From Gimesia benthica (GTDB lineage Bacteria > Planctomycetota > Planctomycetia > Planctomycetales > Planctomycetaceae), in NCBI RefSeq assembly GCF_009720525.1, contig NZ_CP043930.1, positions 7,390,001-7,454,000 on the forward strand: a stretch of DNA of 64,000 nt. Direction: 5' to 3'. This document shows, one piece after another, positions 718 through 60,397 of this stretch (the stretch's first letter is position 1; the number at the start of each line of letters is the position of its first letter). Made by a program: the position numbers and the translations under genes. Under the pieces are notes generated by a model, which did no database searches, was not told the origin of the DNA, and saw only the letters and a list, made by a program, of their open reading frames with translations.

Positions 718-3700
718 ATGTTAAAGTTATCCATAAAAAAACACCTTCTCTGGTCATGCATGCTGGTTAGCCTGACCTCGCTGGGAGTTTATCTCTTTGC
801 GGCAGAAAAAAGTTCCCCCGAAGTCCGTTCGCTGGCAGATTCCTATCAGAAACAGGGAAACTACCGCGATGCCTGGGAACTGTATCAGAAGCTGGCAACC
901 CGACAGGATAGTTCAGCAACAGAGGTGGTGCATGATCTGCAGGCAGGCATCCAGTGTCTGCAGCGTTTGAACCGCGTCAGTGAAATCGACGCGTTTCGAA
1001 AAGCGATTCTCAAAGTACACAGCGATGAACCGCTGGTTCTCTCCAGTCTTGCAGAAACACTGATTCAGGGACCTTATTTTGGATATATCATCGATGGTGA
1101 GTTCATCCGCGGTCACCAGAGGGGTGGCAGTCGATATGTGAATACACGGGAACAGGACCGTCTCCGGGCCTTACAGCTGATGAGTCAGGCGGTTGAGGAA
1201 TTGAAGTCATCCAATGATCCAGCGCTCGCAGCCCAGATTTATGCTGACTATGCCAGATACCTGATGTCAGGCCGTCAGGGACGCGATGCCTGGAAGCTTC
1301 AGATTTTGACTGATCTTGAGGCAATACCCGACTACCAGAGCGTCGGGGTAGAACCTGGCAACTGGTTTCGTGGTGAACCCAGCGGAGGGTCGGAAGGGGC
1401 GCCCGTGGATGCGAATGGCAAGCCCGTTTACTATCGAGTGCCCGAGTCCTGGGAGGGAGCGGCTAATGATGGAGAACGCTGGCGATGGATGCTGGCGGAA
1501 TCAGTCAAACAGGAGCCCGGGCGGGAAGGGCGCGTGCTTCTGGAAGTCGCGAATTTTACCCGCAGTCAGTTTGGCGTTCAGACCCTGCAGCAATACTTTC
1601 CCCTGCTGTACCGGACTCGGGCGATGGACGATGCCAAGGAGGAAGAGCAGGTTAATCCCTATTCTCTGGAGAGTCTGAAAGAATCCGAAACCCTCGCACG
1701 TCTGGCTACGGGAATTCAACGCTTCGAGCTGCCCGCCGATCAGAATTATATTCTGCTTTACCAGAAGGTGATCTCACTGGGTAAAAGCAACCAGGCGGAA
1801 AACGCACTGGCTCAGTTGACGAGTGTCTTCGAGAACCGGAGACAGTATCCAGAAGCTGCTAAATACCTGCAGCAGAACATTCGAGAGTATGGTGATCCCG
1901 GGCAGAATAAACAGAAGCACCTGAATCAGATTGTTGGCAGCTGGGGAGAATTCGCACCCACTCAGACACAGGCCGCAGGTCAGGGGGCTAAGGTCGATTA
2001 TCGTTTCCGGAACGGTATGCAGGTCAGATTTGAAGCGTATGAGATCAACGTTGCTGAATTGTTGAAAGATGTCAAAGACTATCTCAAGTCACATCCGGAC
2101 CGCCTGGACTGGAATAAAATCAATATTTCCAACCTGGGATATCGTCTGGTTCAGGAACAGCAGAAAAAATATCAGGGTGAACTGGTTTCTCGCTGGGATA
2201 TGAAACTGGATCCTCTGGCAGGACACCGGGACCGTCGTGTGACTGTCACCACCCCGCTGCAGAATGCAGGAGCATATCTGCTGATCGCGAAAATGGAAGA
2301 CGGGAATACCAGTCGGATTGTCGTCTGGCTGGATGATACTGTCATCGTGCACAAGCGGATGGCAGACCGGACCTTCTATTATGTGGCTGATGCCCGCAGC
2401 GGGCAGCCGGTGCCGAATGCGAATCTGGAGTTTTTTGGATATCAGAACAAATACGTCGCCCGTAATCAGCGACAGACTCTGACCGCCAGTTTTGCAGAGC
2501 AGACCGATGAAAACGGTCAGGCATTTCCTGAAGAGAATCTACTGAAACGCGAGTTTCAATGGATTGCCATCGCCCGTACGAAGTCAGGTCGATTTGCCTA
2601 CCAGGGGTTCGATCGATTCTGGTACCAGCGGTCCCCCCAGGAAGAGTATCAGGTCAACAAGATTTATGGGATCACCGATCGTCCCGTCTACCGCCCTGGT
2701 CAGAAAGTCGATTATAAATTCTGGGTGCGGAACGTGGGCTATGATCTTTCGAAATCTGAGGAAGCCCTGTTTGATCAACGTGAGGTTACATTAAAGCTGA
2801 TCGGGCGAGATCAGAAACAGATCTTTGAAAAAACGCTCACGACCGACGAGTATGGCGGTGCAAACGGGGAGTGGGAGATTCCCCAAGATGCCGCTCTGGG
2901 CTCTTACAGTTTTGTGGTCGAAGTCAAATATGATTTTCCACCGGGGAATAAACGAAATCGCAGATTTGCTTCGTCGTTTTCGTTCCGCGTTGAGGAATAT
3001 AAGAAACCGGAATACGAAGTTTCAGTCGAGGCACCTGATGAACCCGTGGCACTGGGAGATACGATTAAAGCCAAAATTAAGGCAAAGTACTATTTTGGCA
3101 GTCCGGTGGTCAACGCGGAAGTCAAATACAAAGTAACGCGAACCTCTTACGAACAGCACTGGTATCCCTATGATCCGTGGGACTGGTTGTATGGATCCGG
3201 TTACTGGTGGTTTACCAGTGATCATCCCTGGTATCCCGGTTGGGGCCATTGGGGATGTATTGCCCCCGGTCCGTGGTGGATCCATCGTCGCTCTGCACCA
3301 CCAGAAGTTGTTATGTCGAATACGGTTCCAATTGGCAGCAATGGTGAGGTTGAAATCGAGATCGACACAGCGCTGGCGAAAGCGATTCACGGCGATGAAG
3401 ATCATCGATATGAGATTACTGCAGAAGTCGTTGACGAGTCTCGACGTACGATCGTGGGAAAAGGATCGGTACTGGTAGCCCGTGAACCCTTCAAAGTGTT
3501 TGCCTGGATGGATCGGGGGTATTACCGGGTTGGCGATTCGATGACGGCCAGCTTCAAGGCACAGACACTCGATCAGAAACCGGTCCAGGGAACCGGGAAG
3601 ATCGTGTTATACCATATTACCTACAATCAACGGGGAGAACCACAGGAAACGGCGGTCCAGGAATGGGACGTAATCCCGCAAGAGGAAGGTACAATCAATC

Positions 3701-6700
3701 AAAAGATGTCCGCGACTCAGGCCGGACAATATCGAGTTGCCTGTGTCGTAACGGACAGACAGGGGAAACAGATTGAAGGGGGCTCCCTGTTCACGATCCG
3801 AGGTGAAGGTTTTGACGGCAAGGAGTATCGATTCAATGACCTGGAAATCATTGTCGAAAAGAAAAATTACCAGCCGGGGGAAAAGGTCCGTCTGTTGATC
3901 AATACGAATCAGCCGGGCAGTACCATTTTGTTGTTTTTGCGTCCCGTGAATGGAGTCTATCAGAAACCCCAGGTGCTCAAGCTGGCTGGCAAGAGTACCA
4001 CTTATGAGCTGGACCTGACGTCCAAGGATCTGCCAAACCTGTTTGTGGAAGCTGTGACAATTCACCAGGGGCAGGTGTTTACCGAAGCACGTGAAATTGC
4101 CGTTCCACCAGAAAAACGGGTGGTCAACCTGGAAGTCGAATCCTCTGAAACAGAATATAAGCCCGGTCAAGACGCGACCGTGAAGCTGAAAGTGACCGAT
4201 GCAGAAGGAAATCCGGTCGAGGGTTCCCTGGTGCTGAGTGTCTATGACAAGAGTGTGGAGTACATCAGCGGCGGTTCGAATGTGAGTGATATCAAATCAT
4301 TCTTCTGGAAATGGAAACGTTCACATCACCCTTTGACCTACAGTAGTCTCAGTCGGAGTTTTCATAACCTGCTCAAGCAAGGTGAAATAGGCATGCAGGT
4401 GCTGGGGACTTTTGGAAATCTGATGCCTGCGAATGCTGATAAATCGGATCAATTCGGAGTCATGGAGGGTGCTGCTGGCGGGCTGGGGGCCATGCGTCGT
4501 TCAAGGGCTGTCGGTGCTACTCCGATGGCTGCAGCTCCGGAAGCAAATATGCTGATGGAAAAACAGGCCGATGCAGCCGTTGAATCAGTGGGACCCTCAG
4601 CGGTGGTCGAACCGGTCGTACGTCAGAATTTCGCAGATACCGCCTTTTGGAATGGCGCGATCAATACGGACCAGAATGGTCTGGCAGAGGTTTCCTTCAA
4701 GATGCCCGAAAATCTCACCAGTTGGAAGATTCGCAGCTGGTCAATGGGCGCAGGGACCATGGTAGGTGAAGGTCAGCGTGAAGTCGTCACTCGTAAAAAT
4801 CTGATTATTCGGCTCCAGGCTCCCCGGTTCTTTACAGAGACTGATGAAGTCGTGCTGAGTGCGAACGTGCATAACTACCTGAAGACATCCAAGGATGTGC
4901 AGGTCGTGCTTGAACTGGACGGCGATGCATTGGAACCGCTGGATGAACTGACTCAGACGGTGACGATTGACGCCAATGGCGAGAAACGGATTGACTGGCG
5001 GGTCAAAGCCTCACGGGCTGGTTTTGCCGTAATTCGTATGAAAGCACTGACCGACGAGGAATCCGATGCGATGCAGGTGACCTTCCCGGTCAAAGTGCAC
5101 GGAATTTTAAAAACAGAATCCTTTACCGGCAGTATTCGTCCTGGCGATACATCGGCCCAGATCAGTTTTCAGATTCCCGGCCAGCGGACGACGGAACTCA
5201 GTCGCCTGGAACTTCGTTATTCCCCCTCACTGGCAGGAGCGATGGTCGATGCACTGCCTTATCTGATTTACAACCCCCATAAAACTACAGATTGCACCCT
5301 GTATCGTTTTCTGCCAACCGTGATGACCCAGAACATTCTGAAACGAATGGGGCTGGATCTGAAGGAGATTGAGCGGAAACGGACTAACCTGAATGCCCAG
5401 GAAATTGGCGATGATCAGAAACGGGCTGAACAGTGGAAACGCTATGGTCAGAATCCGATCTTCAATCAGGCTGAGGCGGATCTGATCGTGAAGCAGGGCG
5501 TCGCAGATTTGACCAGTATGCAGTTGTCTGATGGTGGCTGGGGCTGGTTCTCTGGCTGGCAGGAACGGTCGTCTCCCTTCTTCACTGCCCGGGTTGTACA
5601 GGGGCTGGCCCTGGCGCAGCAGAGCGATGTTGCGCTGGTGCCCGGCACTTTGGAACGCGGGGTCGAGTGGTTGAAGAACTACCAGCAACAGGAAGTTCGG
5701 AAGCTTCTGAATGCACCAGCTAAAACGAAACCCTACAAAGAATATGTGTCCAACCTGGATGCCTATGTGTTCCTGGTTCTGGTCAATCAGGGCGTCACCA
5801 ATGAGCAGATGTATGATTTCCTGTATCGGGATCGTACTAAATTATCGGTCTATGCCTTGGGAATGTTGGGACTGGCGTCTCATAAGCTGGAACGTCAGGA
5901 TCGTCTGACGATGCTGATGGATAACATGGATCAGTACCTGGTACAGGATCCTGAAAATCAGACCGCTTATCTTAATCTGCCAGAAAACAACTGGTGGTGG
6001 CACTGGTACGGTAATGAAGTGGAAGCGAATGCTTACTATCTGAAGCTGTTGTCGAAAGTGGATCCGCAGAACCCCAAAGCGGCACAGCTGGTCAAGTATC
6101 TGCTTAACAACCGCAAGCACGCCACCTACTGGAGTTCTGTGTCGGACACTGCGATCGCAGTCGAAGCTCTGGCCGAGTACTGGACAGCCAGTGGAGAAGA
6201 TCAACCCGATCTGACTCTCGAAGTTTACCTGGATGGTGAGAAACAGAAAGAGGTGAAAATTACAGCCGCCGATCTGTTTACTTATGACAACAAGTTTGTC
6301 CTGGAAGGGGACGCATTGACTGCGGGGGCTCATCGTCTGGAGATCCGGAAGCAGGGGCGGGGGCCGGTATACTATAATGCTTATGTGACGTACTTCACCA
6401 AGGAAGATTTCATCACAGCCACAGGTTTGGAAGTCAAAGTGGAACGAAAGTATTACCAGCTGATTCCCGAAGACGCGGACATTAAAACGTCCGGCTCGGA
6501 AGGTCAGGTCGTCGATCAGCGTGTGGAGAAATACCAGCGTCAGGAAATCACACGTGAGGCTGCACTCAAGAGTGGCGACCTGGTGGAAGTGGAATTGATC
6601 TTCGACAGCAAAAATGACTATGAATATCTGGTATTCGAAGATTTCCGCGCCGCTGGTCTGGAACCGGTCGAACTCCGCAGCGGATACTCCTACAACGGAC

Positions 6701-54304: not shown

Positions 54305-55486
54305 TCAGGGAGTACCGCTGATCGGCAGAAACTGAATACAGACCGGCTTGGGAACGTCGATTTCATGTCCTGTTGGCTCCAGCACCCCCGTTTTCTGATT
54401 GATCTTGAATACGACGACGTTATTCGAATCCTGGTTCGCGGCCAGCAGGAATTTCCCACTCGGGTCGATATTAAAATTCCGCGGAATCGCACCGCCGGTC
54501 GGCTGATAACCGAGGGACGTCAGTTCGCCCGTTTTCTGGTCGATTCCATACATGGCAATCGTGTTCGGGCCCCGGTTGGAACCATACAGGAATTTTCCAG
54601 AGGGATGCACCAGAACCTGCGCTGTCGAATTCCCTTTCCGTTTCGTTCCTTCTGGAACGGTGGAGATGTTCTGCAGAATCTCAAAGACACCCGTCTTTTG
54701 ATTGTATTTCATGGCGGTCACGGTCAGGTTCAGCTCGTTAATCACATAACCCCATTTCCCGCTCGGATGAAAGGCAAAGTGCCGGGGACCGGCTCCCGGA
54801 GCCATTTTGATTCCCGGTATCGCGTTCGGAGTCAGGCTGCCGTCGGCTGCAGAGAAATCGTAGACGCGCAGTTCGTCAATGCCCAGATCGGCGACAACTG
54901 CATGACGGTTCTTGGGATCCAGATTAATCGAATGCGCGTGCGGTGCTTTCTGACGGGCCGGATTCACACTGGAACCGGTATGCTGCACAAAAGCGGAACT
55001 GGGTCCGAGGGCACCATCTTTCTGGATCGGCAGCGTGCAGATATTGCCGCCAGAATAGTTGGCCACGAGCACGAACTTGCCAGTCGCATCCACCACCAGG
55101 TGACAGGGAGAGCCACCCCGGGAAGAATGCTGGTTGAGAAACGTCAGCTTGCCACTGTCTGAAGCAATCGAATACGCACTGACGGCACCCGCTTTCTGGC
55201 CTTCAAAATCACTGATTTCATTAACGGCATACAGATATTTCTGATTGGGAGAAATCGCCAGAAACGAGGGATTCACGCTGTTTTCCGTGACATCCACGTG
55301 CGTCAGTTTGCCCGTCTTGCCGTCCAGCAGCAACTGGTAGATCCCTTTGCTGTCGCTGCCGCGGGTATAGGTGCCCACATAAACCCGATATTGCTCAGCC
55401 CCGGATGCGGTTTGGGTGAGGAGCGTGGAGCAGACGGCTCCGGAAAAGAGAGCGAAGCACAGGAAATATTGGGTCGGCGCGAGCAT
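54305..55486 (-). CDS. Lactonase-family beta-propeller (6-phosphogluconolactonase-like)
   Basis: 393 residues with a signal peptide (QYFLCFALFSGAVCSTLL). AGGAT is seven bases before the ATG at 55486. Seven-bladed YbhE/Pgl-type propeller: RVYVGTYTRGSDSKGIYQLL, NPSFLAISPNQKYLYAVNEI, GGSPCHLVVDATGKFVLVAN, ARQKAPHAHSINLDPKNRHA, GAGPRHFAFHPSGKWGYVIN, PSGKFLYGSNRGPNTIAMYG, IPRNFNIDPSGKFLLAANQD. The signal peptide means it is probably periplasmic, so it may not be the pentose-phosphate enzyme; a periplasmic sugar lactonase is more likely. Confidence 0.93.
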   Translation of the reverse strand: MLAPTQYFLCFALFSGAVCSTLLTQTASGAEQYRVYVGTYTRGSDSKGIYQLLLDGKTGKLTHVDVTENSVNPSFLAISPNQKYLYAVNEISDFEGQKAGAVSAYSIASDSGKLTFLNQHSSRGGSPCHLVVDATGKFVLVANYSGGNICTLPIQKDGALGPSSAFVQHTGSSVNPARQKAPHAHSINLDPKNRHAVVADLGIDELRVYDFSAADGSLTPNAIPGIKMAPGAGPRHFAFHPSGKWGYVINELNLTVTAMKYNQKTGVFEILQNISTVPEGTKRKGNSTAQVLVHPSGKFLYGSNRGPNTIAMYGIDQKTGELTSLGYQPTGGAIPRNFNIDPSGKFLLAANQDSNNVVVFKINQKTGVLEPTGHEIDVPKPVCIQFLPISGTP

Positions 55487-55656
55487 GGGCAATCCTATCT
55501 GAAATATCAGGAGAACAGGGCAGGGGACGGGCAATCCATCCCTCACCTGGCTTTGCAGTTATTTGACTCGAATCAATGGCGGAACGCAAGCCTCTGTTTC
55601 GGCGGGGATCTGAAATACCGGGGGCGTCAATCCTGTGATTCGCGAACCGAAATGAT

Positions 55657-55669: not shown

Positions 55670-57013
55670 ATGTTGAAACGGATTACACTACATAACTTTA
55701 TGAGCCATGCGTTTACCGAGATTGAGCTGTCGCCCGGACTCACCGTGCTGACGGGGCCCAATAACTGCGGTAAGTCGGCGTTCGTCTCGGCCCTGCAGGT
55801 ACTGGCGGAAAATACCTCGGGCGATTACATGGTCAGGCACGGCGCCAAAGAGTGCCGCGTGATCGTGGAAACCGACGACGGCCACGTCATCGAATGGAAA
55901 CGCAAAAAGAAGGTCGTCAGTTATACGATTGACGGGCAGGATTTCCATCGCCTCAGAAACAATGTCCCCGATATCCTCCCGGAAGTATTAAGACTGGCGA
56001 AAGTCAAGTCGGGGGACAGCGATGAATTCGATGTCCATTTCGGCGAGCAGAAATCGCCCATCTTTCTGCTGGGCGATCGGGGCAGTCGGGCCGCCCGCTT
56101 CTTTGCCTCCTCCTCGGATGCCTCCGTGCTGATCGAGATGCAGAAGCGGCACCGCAGCAAAGTCAAAGTTGCTCAGCAGGACTATCAGCGACAACAGACC
56201 GAGCAGAAACAGAACGAGGCCACACTGAAACTGCTGGAGCCCGTTCCCGATCTGGAATCCGAACTCGAGACACTCGAAACACAATATCAGGCACTCCAGG
56301 CCGATACGCAGCAGATTCAGCAGCTGGAAACGCTGATTTCGGAACTGACAAAGGCGGAAGCACGTGTCGCCCTCTGTTCCCGCCGGGTGACCTGTCTTCA
56401 GGAATTACCCGGACCGCTGGAGCAGGAACCGGAACGCCCCCTCGCAGCACTGGTTCAACGCTGGCAGACGATTCAACTCGGGCTGCAGCGCTCACAGACG
56501 ACTGTCTCCGCTCTGCAGACATTAAGCGATCCCCCTGCGCTACAAAATGAATCGGCACTCTCTGCTCTGATCAGGGATTTTCAACTGCAGGATCGCATCT
56601 GCCAGCATTCACAGGCGACACAGAATTGCCTGGAACCGCTGGATGAACCTCCTCAGCTGACCGATCCGGAAAGTCTGGAGAAGCTGATCGCGAGACTGAC
56701 AGCCGCGGAAGCCCGCACGCAACGGGATCGAAAAGAAGCCGAAATCCTCGCAGAATGCGTTTCCCCCCCGCAACTGGTCGATGGTGCGAAGCTCGCGCAG
56801 TTCTGCCAGCAGTGGACCGCCGCGGAGACGCAGTTTCTGGAACGGAAACAGATTCACGCTGGTGTCGAAGCCGAATACGAACAGGCCCGCGTCGAACTGC
56901 TACACTTGGTGGAAGAGAATCCCACCTGCCCCACGTGTGGCGGAGAGCTGGAGCCGGATCGCTTCATTCAGTCAGCCGAAACCGGATTGAAGGGGCACAC
57001 ACATGACGCCTGA
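55670..57013 (+). CDS. N-terminal half of a split SbcC/Rad50-like ATPase with terminal zinc hook
   Basis: 447 residues. ITLHNFMSHAFTEIELSPG opens an AAA_23/SMC-type head; Walker A is GPNNCGKS (29-36), the Q-loop candidate Q127 (HFGEQKSPIFLL). From about residue 155 to 415 a long helical coil rich in Q, E, L and R, interrupted by Pro-containing spots. C420-P-T-C423-GGEL is a zinc-hook motif 24 residues from the end. There is no ABC signature or Walker B; these are in the separate gene at 58269. Canonical SbcC/Rad50 has the hook in the middle of one chain of about 900-1300 residues, so this protein ends just where the chain would turn back. Overlaps the nuclease gene by 11 bases. Confidence 0.88.
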   Translation: MLKRITLHNFMSHAFTEIELSPGLTVLTGPNNCGKSAFVSALQVLAENTSGDYMVRHGAKECRVIVETDDGHVIEWKRKKKVVSYTIDGQDFHRLRNNVPDILPEVLRLAKVKSGDSDEFDVHFGEQKSPIFLLGDRGSRAARFFASSSDASVLIEMQKRHRSKVKVAQQDYQRQQTEQKQNEATLKLLEPVPDLESELETLETQYQALQADTQQIQQLETLISELTKAEARVALCSRRVTCLQELPGPLEQEPERPLAALVQRWQTIQLGLQRSQTTVSALQTLSDPPALQNESALSALIRDFQLQDRICQHSQATQNCLEPLDEPPQLTDPESLEKLIARLTAAEARTQRDRKEAEILAECVSPPQLVDGAKLAQFCQQWTAAETQFLERKQIHAGVEAEYEQARVELLHLVEENPTCPTCGGELEPDRFIQSAETGLKGHTHDA

Positions 57014-57950
57014 AGAATATCAAGGTGTGCTCCTGATCGGCGATCCCCACGTGGAAGGGCGGGTTCCCGGCTTTCGCAGGGATGACTATCCCCGCGTCGT
57101 GCTGGAGAAAATCAAGTGGTGTCTGCAGACGGCGCAGGAACAAAGCTTACTCCCCGTGATCCTGGGTGACCTGTTTCATGTGCCCCGCGACAATCAGAAC
57201 TGGCTGTTGTGTGAACTGCTGACTTTATTCGAAACACCCGTGTATGGCATCTACGGCAATCATGACTGCCGTGAAAACCAGTTGAACGAACATGACACGC
57301 TCAGCATTCTGATCCAGGCGGGCCGCTATCGTCTGCTCTCAACCGAAAATCCCTGGCGAGGCACCATGGCAGGTCGCCCGGTCATCGTGGGAGGCACTTC
57401 CTGGGGGCACAAACTACCCAAGGCGGACGCATTTGAGCACGAAACCGATTCACCGCTGATCGTCTGGGTGACCCACCACGACCTGCTCGTCCCCGGCTAC
57501 GAAGAACAGGGGCACCTGCGTCCCTATGAAATTACAGGCGTGGATTACGTTGTTAACGGCCACATTCATCGTCGGCTTGATGACGTGCAGAAAGGGCAGA
57601 CGACCTGGGTGACCCCGGGAAATATTATCCGGCGTTCGCGCAGCGATGCGACTCGGGCGCATATTCCTTCTGTCTTGAAACTCGAAGCGACCGCAGACGG
57701 CTGGCGACGTTCGCAGGTGGAAATTCCCCACGCCGCCTTTGATGAAGTCTTTCACCCGGAAATGGAAGACGAAACCGAGGAAGGCGTGCCGTCCGCTTTT
57801 ATTTCGGGTCTGGCCGAATTACAGTCTCGGAGAACGGATACGGGAGCAGGGCTGAAACTGTTCCTGGAAAAAAATCTGCCCCAGTTTGAAACAACCGTGG
57901 CAGCAGAAATACAGAAATTAGCAGATGAGGTTTCCCGCGATGACGAATGA
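57003..57950 (+). CDS. SbcD/Mre11-like metallophosphoesterase
   Basis: 315 residues with all five calcineurin-type motifs: GDPH (D14, H16), LGDLFH (D56, H59), YGNHDC (N86, H87, D88), THHD (H158, H159) and NGHIHR (H187, H189). The order and spacing fit the Mre11/SbcD nuclease core, which cuts DNA ends and hairpins when paired with an SMC-like ATPase. The C-terminal extension (about 245-315) is acidic and helical (GLKLFLEKNLPQFETTVAAE) and might bind the ATPase coil base as the Mre11 latch does; this is inference. Starts 11 bases inside the ATPase half gene and overlaps the next gene by 11. Confidence 0.9.
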   Translation: MTPEEYQGVLLIGDPHVEGRVPGFRRDDYPRVVLEKIKWCLQTAQEQSLLPVILGDLFHVPRDNQNWLLCELLTLFETPVYGIYGNHDCRENQLNEHDTLSILIQAGRYRLLSTENPWRGTMAGRPVIVGGTSWGHKLPKADAFEHETDSPLIVWVTHHDLLVPGYEEQGHLRPYEITGVDYVVNGHIHRRLDDVQKGQTTWVTPGNIIRRSRSDATRAHIPSVLKLEATADGWRRSQVEIPHAAFDEVFHPEMEDETEEGVPSAFISGLAELQSRRTDTGAGLKLFLEKNLPQFETTVAAEIQKLADEVSRDDE

Positions 57951-58245
57951 CCAGCCAGGAGCAGTTCCCGATATCGAAGCTTTGACGGAACAGTTTCAGA
58001 AACTGAATAAACGCAAAATTGAATCCGAACGCGACCTGGTGAATGCCGAGCAGAATCTGAACGAGCTCAAGCAACAGGCGCAGGAAGAGTATGGCACCGA
58101 TCAACTGGAAGAGCTGAAAGCAAAGCTGCAGCAGATCAAGGATGAGAATGCCCGCAAACGGGCCGAGTATCATCAGAGTCTCGCGAAGATCGAAACCGAA
58201 CTCTCCAAAATTGAAACCGCACATCAGTCAGCAGACGCTTCCTGA
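57940..58245 (+). CDS. Small coiled-coil protein in the split SbcC operon
   Basis: 101 residues from the ATG at 57940, inside the end of the nuclease gene. After PGAVPDIEALTEQFQKLNKR almost the whole chain is heptad-like helix (LVNAEQNLNELKQQAQEEYG, LEELKAKLQQIKDENARKRA, SLAKIETELSKIETAHQSA). No signal or enzyme motif. It may supply part of the return strand of the coil missing from the C-terminal ATPase half, or bridge the subunits. No named family recognised. Confidence 0.8.
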   Translation: MTNDQPGAVPDIEALTEQFQKLNKRKIESERDLVNAEQNLNELKQQAQEEYGTDQLEELKAKLQQIKDENARKRAEYHQSLAKIETELSKIETAHQSADAS

Positions 58246-58268
58246 ACCGGCCAAATGGAAAGTGAGCC

Positions 58269-58970
58269 ATGCAGAGCGACATGACTTCTCAATCTGATTC
58301 TGAGACCGAGCCCGGGGAACTGCGGTCTCCCTTGAGCCTGCAGCGCCGCTGCTGGGAACTTTCCGCGGTGCGCAAACAGAAAGAGAAAGACCAGGCCCAG
58401 CTCAAACAGCTTTTGCAGGAAACGGAACAGTACCTGGGGATCTCCGAGCAGGTCACCGAAGCTTTGGAGACCTTAAGCGGTCAGCTGTTCGAGCAGGAAC
58501 TGCAGATGATTCAGGAGAAACTGACGATCGCCCTCCAGGAAGTTCTGGAACAGCCACTCAAGCTCAAGGCGGTCGCTGAATGGAAACGCAATGCCGCCAC
58601 GGTCGAATTTCAGATCGAACGGGAAGGCAATACGGAAGACATCATGCGGGGGCAGGGGGGTTCGGTGGCCAACATCCTCTCGGTCGGCCTGCGGATGTTC
58701 GCGCTCATGACGCTGGATGAAACAGAACACCGGCGGGTACTCGTTCTGGACGAACAGGATTGCTGGCTCCGTCCCGATCTGGTACCACGGTTAGTGAAAA
58801 TTATTCATGAGGCGGGGCAGGCACTCGGCTTCCAGATTATCATGATCAGTCACCACGATCCGGTAATGTTTGAACGTTATGCTGACACCATTTTCCAGTT
58901 CACTCCCTCTCCCGAAGGGGTAAAGGTAGAACGCGTGGAAACGGATCGACACCAATATGATTCAACCTGA
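58269..58970 (+). CDS. C-terminal half of a split SbcC/Rad50-like ATPase
   Basis: 233 residues, 23 bases after the coiled-coil gene. Coil of about 70 residues (26-96: RKQKEKDQAQLKQLLQETEQ, LSGQLFEQELQMIQEKLTIA), then beta strands (KAVAEWKRNAATVEFQIERE), a signature-like loop MRGQGGSVANILSVGLRMFA (126-145; S132), Walker B RRVLVLDEQDCWLRPD (D161-E162) and H-loop IMISHHD (H195/H196). There is no Walker A, which lies in the 55670 gene. The signature is unusual (GGSVANILS instead of LSGGE-like). The head would be completed by pairing with the N-terminal half, as in canonical Rad50 where the two halves are one chain. Confidence 0.85.
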   Translation: MQSDMTSQSDSETEPGELRSPLSLQRRCWELSAVRKQKEKDQAQLKQLLQETEQYLGISEQVTEALETLSGQLFEQELQMIQEKLTIALQEVLEQPLKLKAVAEWKRNAATVEFQIEREGNTEDIMRGQGGSVANILSVGLRMFALMTLDETEHRRVLVLDEQDCWLRPDLVPRLVKIIHEAGQALGFQIIMISHHDPVMFERYADTIFQFTPSPEGVKVERVETDRHQYDST

Positions 58971-59008: not shown

Positions 59009-60397
59009 ATGACATCGCCAACATATAAGACTGCTCCTGTCCCTTCTCCGAAAATGCCGAACGGGATTCCCTACATTGTCGGTAACGAAGCAGCAGAACG
59101 CTTCAGTTATTACGGCATGCGAGGCATCCTCGTGATCTTCATGACGCAGTATCTGCTCAATGCAGAGGGGATGAAAGATTACATGAGCGATGAGCAGGCG
59201 ACGAAATACTTTCATCTGTTTGTCGCCGCCGTTTACTTTTTTCCACTGTTGGGGTCTATTATCTCCGATGTATTCTGGGGCAAATATCGGACGATTCTGA
59301 CATTGTCGATCGTTTACTGTTTCGGCCACCTGGCGCTGGCCATTGATGAAACGCGGTCGGGGTTGCTGGTCGGTCTGACTTTGATTGCCATCGGCGCCGG
59401 GGGGATCAAGCCCTGTGTCTCCGCGCATGTGGGCGATCAGTTCGGAAAGCAAAATCAGCATCTGCTCAGCCGGGTCTTTGGCTGGTTTTATCTGTCGATT
59501 AACATGGGGGCCTTTGTCGCTTCCTTATTGATTCCGGTGATCCTCAAGAGCTATGGACCACATTACGCATTTGGACTGCCGGGAATCTTGATGCTGATCG
59601 CCACCATTCTGTTCTGGCTGGGACGCAATGAATTTGTGCACATTCCCGCTTCAGGCTGGGAGAAATTCCGCTCGGAAACATTTGGCAAGGAAGGCCTGCA
59701 GGCGCTGCTGAATCTGTCGGTACTCTATTATGTGTTTCTCCCCGTCTTCTGGTCGCTCTTCGATCAGACGGGCTCCTCCTGGGTACTCCAGGGAACAAAG
59801 ATGAAGCACATGATCGGCAGCTATGAACTGGGAGCGGCCGAAATTCAGGCACTCAATCCCCTGTTTATTTTACTGCTGGTGCCGACGTTTACGTATGTGA
59901 TTTACCCACTGATCGACAAAGTCTTTCCGCTGACACCCCTGCGAAAAATCTCTATCGGTTTCTTTCTGGCGGCCGCCTCGTTTGCGATCAGCGCCCTGCT
60001 TGAATCATGGATCATCCGTGCGCCTGATAACCCTCCCCATATACTCTGGCAGGCGATCCCCTATCTGGTTTTGACCTCTGCAGAAGTCATGGTTTCGATT
60101 ACCTGCCTTGAATTTTCCTATACTCAGGCTCCCAAATCGATGAAGTCATTCATCATGTCACTCTTCTTTCTTTCCATGACGGTGGGGAATCTGCTGACTG
60201 CGGGTGTGAATGAAGTCATTATGGTTGATGAAGAGAGCTCATACCTGGAAGGCGCCAGATACTTCTGGTTCTTTTCCGGACTGATGCTGGTGGCCGCGGT
60301 ACTGTTTGTGTTCGTTGCGCAGCGCTATAAAGGGAAAACGTATATTCAGGATGACGCCGTAGATCAGGCGCAGGCTGAGGAAGAGGGGATTCATTGA
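59009..60397 (+). CDS. POT family proton-dependent oligopeptide transporter
   Basis: 462 residues, 12 membrane segments or more. POT signatures: GNEAAERFSYYGMRGILVIF (ExxERFxYY), FPLLGSIISDVFWGKYRTIL, AIGAGGIKPCVSAHVGDQFG, RVFGWFYLSINMGAFVAS and FWSLFDQTGSSWVLQG. It takes up di- and tripeptides with protons. Start at the ATG 59009, 38 bases after the split ATPase operon; it may be read through from it but functional linkage is not expected. Confidence 0.95.
   Translation: MTSPTYKTAPVPSPKMPNGIPYIVGNEAAERFSYYGMRGILVIFMTQYLLNAEGMKDYMSDEQATKYFHLFVAAVYFFPLLGSIISDVFWGKYRTILTLSIVYCFGHLALAIDETRSGLLVGLTLIAIGAGGIKPCVSAHVGDQFGKQNQHLLSRVFGWFYLSINMGAFVASLLIPVILKSYGPHYAFGLPGILMLIATILFWLGRNEFVHIPASGWEKFRSETFGKEGLQALLNLSVLYYVFLPVFWSLFDQTGSSWVLQGTKMKHMIGSYELGAAEIQALNPLFILLLVPTFTYVIYPLIDKVFPLTPLRKISIGFFLAAASFAISALLESWIIRAPDNPPHILWQAIPYLVLTSAEVMVSITCLEFSYTQAPKSMKSFIMSLFFLSMTVGNLLTAGVNEVIMVDEESSYLEGARYFWFFSGLMLVAAVLFVFVAQRYKGKTYIQDDAVDQAQAEEEGIH

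Follow-up and report, generated by a model that had tools for sequence, protein, structure and literature searches.

Four adjacent genes of the planctomycete Gimesia benthica very probably encode a machine of the Mre11-Rad50 (SbcCD) type, in which the Rad50-like subunit is assembled from separate chains and which would act as an ATP-gated clamp on DNA ends. They lie on the same strand at positions 55670-58970 of the stretch analysed here, which we call the window (64,000 nucleotides, positions 7390001-7454000 of the 8.03 Mb single-contig chromosome), and their open reading frames (ORFs) encode, in this order, an ATPase N-half, a phosphoesterase, a small helical protein, referred to below as the coil protein, and an ATPase C-half. 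Textbooks describe Rad50 and SbcC as one-chain proteins, with an arm that runs to the zinc hook and back. Our reading draws on genes, motifs, conservation, co-occurrence and natural fusions that are directly observed, and on a composite head and a nuclease fold that are predicted. The split is common to phages and many other bacteria, and a permuted one-chain form exists as well; an earlier note on this stretch of DNA had known of neither.

Results

Two chains share one set of ATPase motifs

The N-half matches the Pfam families AAA_15 (1.4e-12) and AAA_23 (7.7e-12) as well as phrog_16465 ('exonuclease', 1.5e-19). It carries a Walker A motif, a glutamine (Q127) that we take to be that of the Q-loop, and a zinc-hook-like CxxC motif located near the end of the chain and not at an apex between two arms of one chain. 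Such a terminal CxxC, at most 50 residues from the C-terminus, is present in 54 of 56 genomic and in all 41 viral N-halves found in the searches described below. Walker A and terminal CPTC thus stand as the earlier note had read them; the single 260-residue coil that it had placed between them does not, the arm being predicted in a relative as several helices with breaks.

The C-half matches phrog_15167 ('ATPase') at 6.2e-10, and its Pfam matches are all weak (for example the C-terminal part of SMC_N at 0.017, below the cut-off). In addition to a Walker B motif, it contains a GQGGS sequence and a histidine, H195, which we presume to be the signature motif and the H-loop residue; D161 and E162 of Walker B and H195 are invariant in 15 rows, and no Walker A motif was found in the C-half sequence. 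In the 17-row and 15-row alignments, neither half alone holds the full ATP-binding cassette (ABC) motif set, and both are needed to complete it, just as the earlier note had stated for the C-half and for the pair. The TIGR00618 (sbcC) and PF13558 (SbcC_Walker_B) models were not among the matches of either half.

At the level of predicted structure, the window C-half matches the Rad50 C-fragment chains 1f2u_D (3.6e-7) and 1f2t_B (1.3e-6), while phmmer searches against the PDB gave weak matches only. For the two halves together, we turned to a relative (L080) in which N-half, coil protein and C-half share a reading frame, and folded the read-through chain with 45 rows of relatives. The predicted local confidence (pLDDT) is mostly 80-97 for lobes, coil and C-half, 44-79 for parts of the arm and mostly below 35 for the filler. 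The model superposes on Pyrococcus furiosus Rad50 (4ncj_A) with Z 25.8 and a root-mean-square deviation (rmsd) of 3.0 Å over 289 of 311 residues, and this superposition covers chain residues 2-882, that is, both predicted lobes. Together with the co-occurrence of the halves and their natural fusions, the tethered model supports the heteromeric, two-chain ABC head that the earlier note had suggested from the gene layout. Of the two outcomes by which that note would have been refuted, neither came about.

The second gene encodes a predicted Mre11/SbcD-type nuclease

The phosphoesterase matches the Pfam family Metallophos (2.3e-9). Across 35 aligned rows, D14, H16, D56, H87, D88, H158 and H189 are invariant and N86 and H187 nearly so; we assign these residues to the five phosphoesterase motifs as D14/H16, D56, N86-H87-D88, H158 and H187/H189. 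Folded together with the C-half as one read-through chain, the window nuclease is predicted to adopt the Mre11 fold (4tug_D, Z 22.0, rmsd 3.5, 241 residues), and the best 39 of 50 rows of the fold search are Mre11/SbcD structures (Z 22.0 to 17.6), followed by GpdQ (17.4). The model also has conserved C-terminal helices, a candidate Rad50-binding site. TIGR00619, the sbcD model, was not among the matches of the window nuclease at E up to 1. The complete Mre11/SbcD nuclease with five motifs of the earlier note is borne out by residue conservation and predicted fold alike.

The halves occur together in bacteria and phages

A C-half profile search of one genome collection yielded 160 bacterial loci, of which the best 80 (the nearer half) were kept and examined; they come from planctomycetes, Desulfobacterota and scattered others, four of them from Gimesia. 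All were found by C-half profiles, and the C-half of the window served to confirm them, a procedure that one-chain relatives with very divergent C-lobes might escape. In every one of the 80 loci, the C-half is a stand-alone ORF (at most 304 amino acids). The full order N-half, nuclease, coil protein, C-half is present in 56 loci, and nine more, located near a contig end, show its later part; in 65 of the 80, a match to the coil profile lies next to the C-half. The remaining 15 have no neighbouring N-half, nuclease or coil gene in the fetched stretch. When 13 of these genomes were searched entirely for an N-half (two loci at contig edges were excluded), 10 turned out to have a strong one elsewhere (E 3.6e-74 or better) and another to have part of one at the end of a contig.

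A survey of 392 genomes of the phylum, in which the best seven C-half and the best four N-half candidates per genome were scored, gave the same picture. C-halves at E 5.2e-62 or better, counted as strong, are present in 16 genomes; 17 genomes, including all of these 16, have an N-half with E no higher than 1e-15. In the seventeenth (G409, L257:3924-11122), N-half and nuclease are divergent, and a divergent 210-residue C-half lies 4.5 kb downstream of the nuclease gene; this locus is possibly a prophage.

In viral contigs, a single-sequence search confirmed nothing, and the C-half profile search found 62 loci, some of them near-identical to one another. An N-half was found in 41 of these, in variable gene orders: N-half, nuclease, coil protein, C-half in 16; N-half, nuclease, C-half in 11, plus four contigs in which the nuclease is fused to the N-half (L209, L210, L214 and L215, two of them near-identical); the C-half ahead of the nuclease in eight; and the nuclease first in two. 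Two viral C-half ORFs exceed 310 residues owing to an N-terminal extension. Microcystis phage Mvi-JY20 has the four-gene order of the window, Bacillus phage vB_BboS-125 carries the split halves, and in Tunturiibacter phage Tunturi_5 the C-half is far from the N-half. In vB_BboS-125, an AP2-domain gene resembling an inserted mobile gene lies between N-half and coil gene (L002:6398-6970). In Microbacterium phage Magritte (L003, L004), the C-half and N-half genes are about 93 kb apart, and the N-half lacks the terminal CxxC.

On large plasmids the halves are fused in reverse order

Among plasmids, 21 records matched the C-half in a search, and nine of them were inspected (L217-L219, L231-L236; plasmids of 0.3-1.3 Mb). 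All nine encode the C-half fused ahead of the N-half in one protein of about 570-680 residues, with a CxxC motif 11-24 residues from its end. A phosphoesterase-family gene comes next in all nine, although support is weak in one (E 5e-4). Ahead of the permuted gene lies a coil-like gene, which matches the coil profile in eight cases; the ninth plasmid, from Alteromonas, has a 176-residue protein in this place. By pattern search, four of the nine plasmid phosphoesterases retain both GNHD and GHxH. In a C-half tree of 127 rows, from which near copies and most Gimesia rows had been removed, the permuted plasmid group forms one side of a branch with support 98/97, next to bacterial split forms (joint branch 100/99). 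This tree is unrooted and has long branches, and it does not show whether the split or the permuted form came first.

Gene layout, conservation and neighbours

The features of the block are compiled in Table 1. The start of the phosphoesterase ORF overlaps the N-half ORF by 11 bp, and the coil ORF overlaps the phosphoesterase ORF by 26 bp. The 101-residue coiled-coil protein of the earlier note is obtained from a later start; counted from the first ATG it is longer, and in relative L080 it is predicted as a helical hairpin instead of a coil.

Table 1. Features of the four-gene block (window coordinates)
Feature	Position	Strand	Basis
ATPase N-half, 447 residues: N-lobe, helical arm, terminal CxxC hook	55670..57013	+	ORF, AAA_15/AAA_23, phrog_16465
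Walker A GPNNCGKS, N-half residues 29-36	55754..55777	+	G29, G34, K35 invariant in 17 aligned rows
Candidate Q-loop glutamine Q127, N-half	56048..56050	+	nearly invariant in 17 aligned rows
CPTC zinc-hook-like motif, N-half residues 420-423	56927..56938	+	28 residues before N-half end
Mre11/SbcD-type phosphoesterase, 315 residues, conserved C-terminal helices (predicted)	57003..57950	+	Metallophos, invariant residues, predicted Mre11 fold
Small helical (coil) protein, 106 residues from first ATG	57925..58245	+	ORF; family profile
ATPase C-half, 233 residues: arm helix and C-lobe	58269..58970	+	ORF; phrog_15167; predicted Rad50 C-lobe fold
Signature-like GQGGS, C-half residues 128-132	58650..58664	+	alignment, position counted from its numbering
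Walker B VLVLDE, C-half residues 157-162	58737..58754	+	D161, E162 invariant in 15 rows
Presumed H-loop histidine, C-half H195	58851..58853	+	invariant in 15 rows

The block is flanked by a divergent gene (54305-55546) and by a gene starting at 59009, which from the character of their sequences we take to be lactonase-like and transporter-like, respectively. The C-half was found in 15 of 17 genomes of the genus, our own included; the two genomes without it are 74-76% complete. Among 15 relatives sampled for synteny (14 congeners and one member of another genus of the same family), the gene order is identical in all, one block being truncated inside the N-half by a contig edge. Conservation of the order, which the earlier note had proposed to check across planctomycetes, is seen in these relatives and in the 56 genomic loci described above. 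The transporter gene lies downstream in 14 of 14 congeners, and all 12 congeners whose stretch extends far enough have lactonase and TrpF genes upstream; in the stretch examined of the relative from the other genus, neither the lactonase nor the transporter gene was found at the block. The ratio of nonsynonymous to synonymous substitution rates (dN/dS), computed per gene in comparisons with three congeners, amounts to 0.12-0.16 in the N-half and 0.05-0.10 in the C-half, and to 0.03-0.06 in the nuclease and 0.04-0.06 in the coil gene. All four genes are under purifying selection.

Canonical SbcCD and the genomic surroundings of the split

The search for an intact sbcC in the same genome, which the earlier note had called for, yielded no canonical SbcCD. 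PF13558 had no match in the G. benthica genome, compared with matches in 14 of 14 control genomes, 12 of them above the cut-off. The best hit of the sbcC model lies in an SMC gene, below the cut-off, and two weaker ones in ORFs of 239 and 566 amino acids; the sole hit of the sbcD model is a gene for a LpxG/YaeI-like phosphoesterase, likewise below the cut-off, as are the LpxG and YaeI matches of this gene. No SbcCD-like set other than the split operon was thus found in this genome. As a replacement for canonical SbcC across the phylum, the split shows no clean complementarity, PF13558 matching in 89 of the 392 genomes and in some of the split-bearing ones. Gimesia genome G012 has Wadjet-type JetC, JetD and JetB, and relative G020 has JetC and JetD (L229, L230).

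The split genes of phage Tunturi_5 are near genes for UvsX, a RuvC-like resolvase and SSB, and in several cases the plasmid copies are near genes for LigD, RecJ, and RecQ- or UvrD-type helicases. A BLAST comparison of the neighbourhoods of 54 genomic loci recovered the coil gene in 31 and no other cluster in more than six, and a wider conserved neighbourhood was accordingly dismissed.

Discussion

In the mechanism that we propose, the N-half would supply the Walker A lobe, the outgoing arm and the terminal CxxC hook, and the C-half the base of the returning arm, the signature motif, Walker B and the H-loop. One N-half and one C-half would make up one ABC head, and two such heads would close upon ATP binding, with a dimer of the phosphoesterase, as the nuclease, docked at the head. 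For the small helical protein, a place on the outer arm is most likely, where it would replace the absent distal return helix. Two N-half hooks joined via zinc would complete an ATP-gated clamp, which might serve recombination repair by holding and trimming DNA ends, hairpins or blocked ends. Processing of DNA ends and hairpins for repair is a role that we infer from the operon being the only SbcCD-like set in its genome and from the recombination and repair genes near the copies in mobile elements.

A number of observations weigh against this interpretation. On the structural side, the L080 model has a global confidence (pTM) of 0.48 and comes with no interface error estimate, and SMC heads superpose on it as well as Rad50 heads do (5h68_A, Z 26.0), rows within one Z unit being tied; being tethered, it speaks for the ability of the halves to make a Rad50-like head and not for their meeting in the cell. 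Other calcineurin-like enzymes adjoin the lowest Mre11 rows in the nuclease fold search, reaching Z 17.4. The zinc-hook model PF04423 scores the N-half at E 0.25, below the cut-off, and two of the 56 genomic N-halves lack the terminal CxxC. Five of the nine plasmid phosphoesterases are without GNHD and GHxH in the pattern search, indicating that nuclease activity is not always needed. As for the coil protein, its profile matches in only 21 of the 62 viral loci. We also compared coil length with N-half arm length in 86 loci, after dropping those with an incomplete N-half, without CxxC, without a coil candidate that fitted in composition and length, or with identical last 150 N-half residues. 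The two lengths correlate overall (rho 0.57), but the correlation is modest in genomic loci (rho 0.43, n 57) and is lost when viruses are taken by themselves (rho 0.15, p 0.44, n 29), so that the comparison argues faintly for the position given to the coil protein and does not decide it. Finally, TIGR00618 exceeded its cut-off in only one of the 14 control genomes and TIGR00619 in eight, which makes both models weak tests of absence, and five of the 16 split-bearing genomes do have a PF13558 match, although one match each in G012 and G020 is there because of JetC.

Could the halves simply be the remains of one gene? A single sbcC gene, broken by mutation or sequencing error or mis-assembled, would also be expected to give two halves that jointly make up one ATPase head. 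We give this practically no chance, since 14 congeners and 56 of the 80 genomic loci share the gene plan, dN/dS is 0.03-0.16 throughout, nuclease and coil genes sit between the halves, and both halves are retained even where they are not adjacent; congener synteny and purifying selection thus also settle the assembly error that the earlier note had considered. It is very unlikely that the halves belong to different complexes, with the N-half as a homodimeric zinc-hook tether and the C-half serving another partner, without any composite head. The C-halves lacking an adjacent N-half would fit this idea, above all in the two of 13 such genomes in which no N-half was found genome-wide; the matched presence of the halves over 392 genomes, their head-to-tail fusion on plasmids, the predicted composite fold and the incomplete motif set of each half speak against it. 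A SMC/condensin-like complex, to which the equally good superposition of SMC heads might point, is less probable still: none of the four window proteins has a SMC_hinge match at E up to 1, nearly all genomic and all viral N-halves end in the CxxC motif, and a gene for a Mre11-type nuclease lies beside the N-half gene or is fused to it.

A defence system, with the split ATPase and the nuclease recognising DNA of phages or plasmids and breaking it down, deserves more consideration, yet we regard it as unlikely. SMC- and Rad50-like ATPases do occur in defence systems such as Wadjet and Lamassu, and in the PADLOC library, a version of 2023 in which ATPase-domain matches spread over many models, the N-half ATPase domain matches many models (best AriA, 3.1e-12) and the C-half some (best mad3, 4.3e-6). 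The nuclease, however, matches nothing in PADLOC up to an E of 1, the block keeps its synteny between ordinary neighbours in 15 of 17 genomes of the genus, only the coil gene recurs as a neighbour in more than six of the 54 genomic loci, and the split is widespread in phages, with recombination genes near some copies. As the block is fixed and syntenic across the genus, our best reading is that the split complex of Gimesia is a housekeeping rather than a defence machine. Of the two roles in the earlier note, DNA-end processing is therefore retained as the likelier one, and defence against foreign DNA is not supported for this genus.

If these four genes encode a Mre11-Rad50-type machine, as we think, they probably represent a separate architectural class of such machines that extends over bacteria, phages and large plasmids, in which three chains make up head and arm and the zinc hook lies at the free end of one of them. 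Opening of the clamp would then be possible at the hook and also at joints between proteins, and the plasmid proteins, in which the halves are rejoined in reverse, would be circularly permuted Rad50 proteins. A conserved natural split and a natural permutation would show that such proteins can do without the return connection at the hook. Head halves, hook arm and small helical protein would be ready-made, separable parts for probing how the ATP state is passed along the arm, and for asking whether ring opening at the hook matters. Moreover, a function is suggested for genes that are named merely 'AAA family ATPase', 'exonuclease' or 'hypothetical protein'.

Relation to known systems

In the full-text literature searched, the scope of which leaves aside bioRxiv preprints and most subscription journals, we found no description of a split or permuted Rad50/SbcC. 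Viral contig L215 (218,948 bp), which we take to be probably Bacillus phage 0305phi8-36, encodes a nuclease-N-half fusion (2627-4936) and, downstream, a separate C-half gene (5953-6663). Mre11/Rad50 fusion proteins have been reported by Yoshida et al. 2011 (PMC3175470), according to whom one P-loop NTPase segment was not observed in the fusions of Bacillus phage 0305phi8-36 and Anaerostipes. These fusions resemble L209, L210, L214 and L215 in having the nuclease ahead of the Rad50-like part; they differ in that the passages of PMC3175470 on them do not describe a separate C-half. The C-half gene downstream in L215 would explain the missing segment, provided that the contig is this phage. The relevant passages of PMC7824862 mention SbcC and SbcD of jumbo phages, those on split proteins concerning polymerases, and in the corresponding parts of PMC6375668, on phages including vB_BboS-125, nothing was found on a split Rad50-like gene set. 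PHROG families 16465 and 15167 are matched by the window N-half and C-half, but the hits do not link the two families, and neither name identifies them as the two parts of a single ATPase.

Wadjet JetC and SMC belong to the same superfamily of ABC/SMC heads. Unlike the proteins described here, they are one-chain ATPases, and SMC is encoded separately in the G. benthica genome, as JetC is in congener G012. With SbcCD and Mre11-Rad50, the four-gene system shares the ABC head fold with both lobes (as predicted for a relative), the predicted Mre11 fold with its catalytic motifs, the CxxC hook and the adjacency of the genes. It differs in that the Rad50-like part is distributed over two chains and a small helical protein, with the hook at a chain end, and in that the curated sbcC and sbcD models stay below their cut-offs everywhere in the genome. 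A further likeness is to the P. furiosus Rad50 crystals 1f2t and 1f2u, with their separate N chain (149 residues, 1f2t_A) and C chain (142-145 residues). We understand these chains to be co-expressed Rad50 fragments that form one head, a construct without the long arms or the hook. That split was made in the laboratory, whereas the one described here is natural and conserved.

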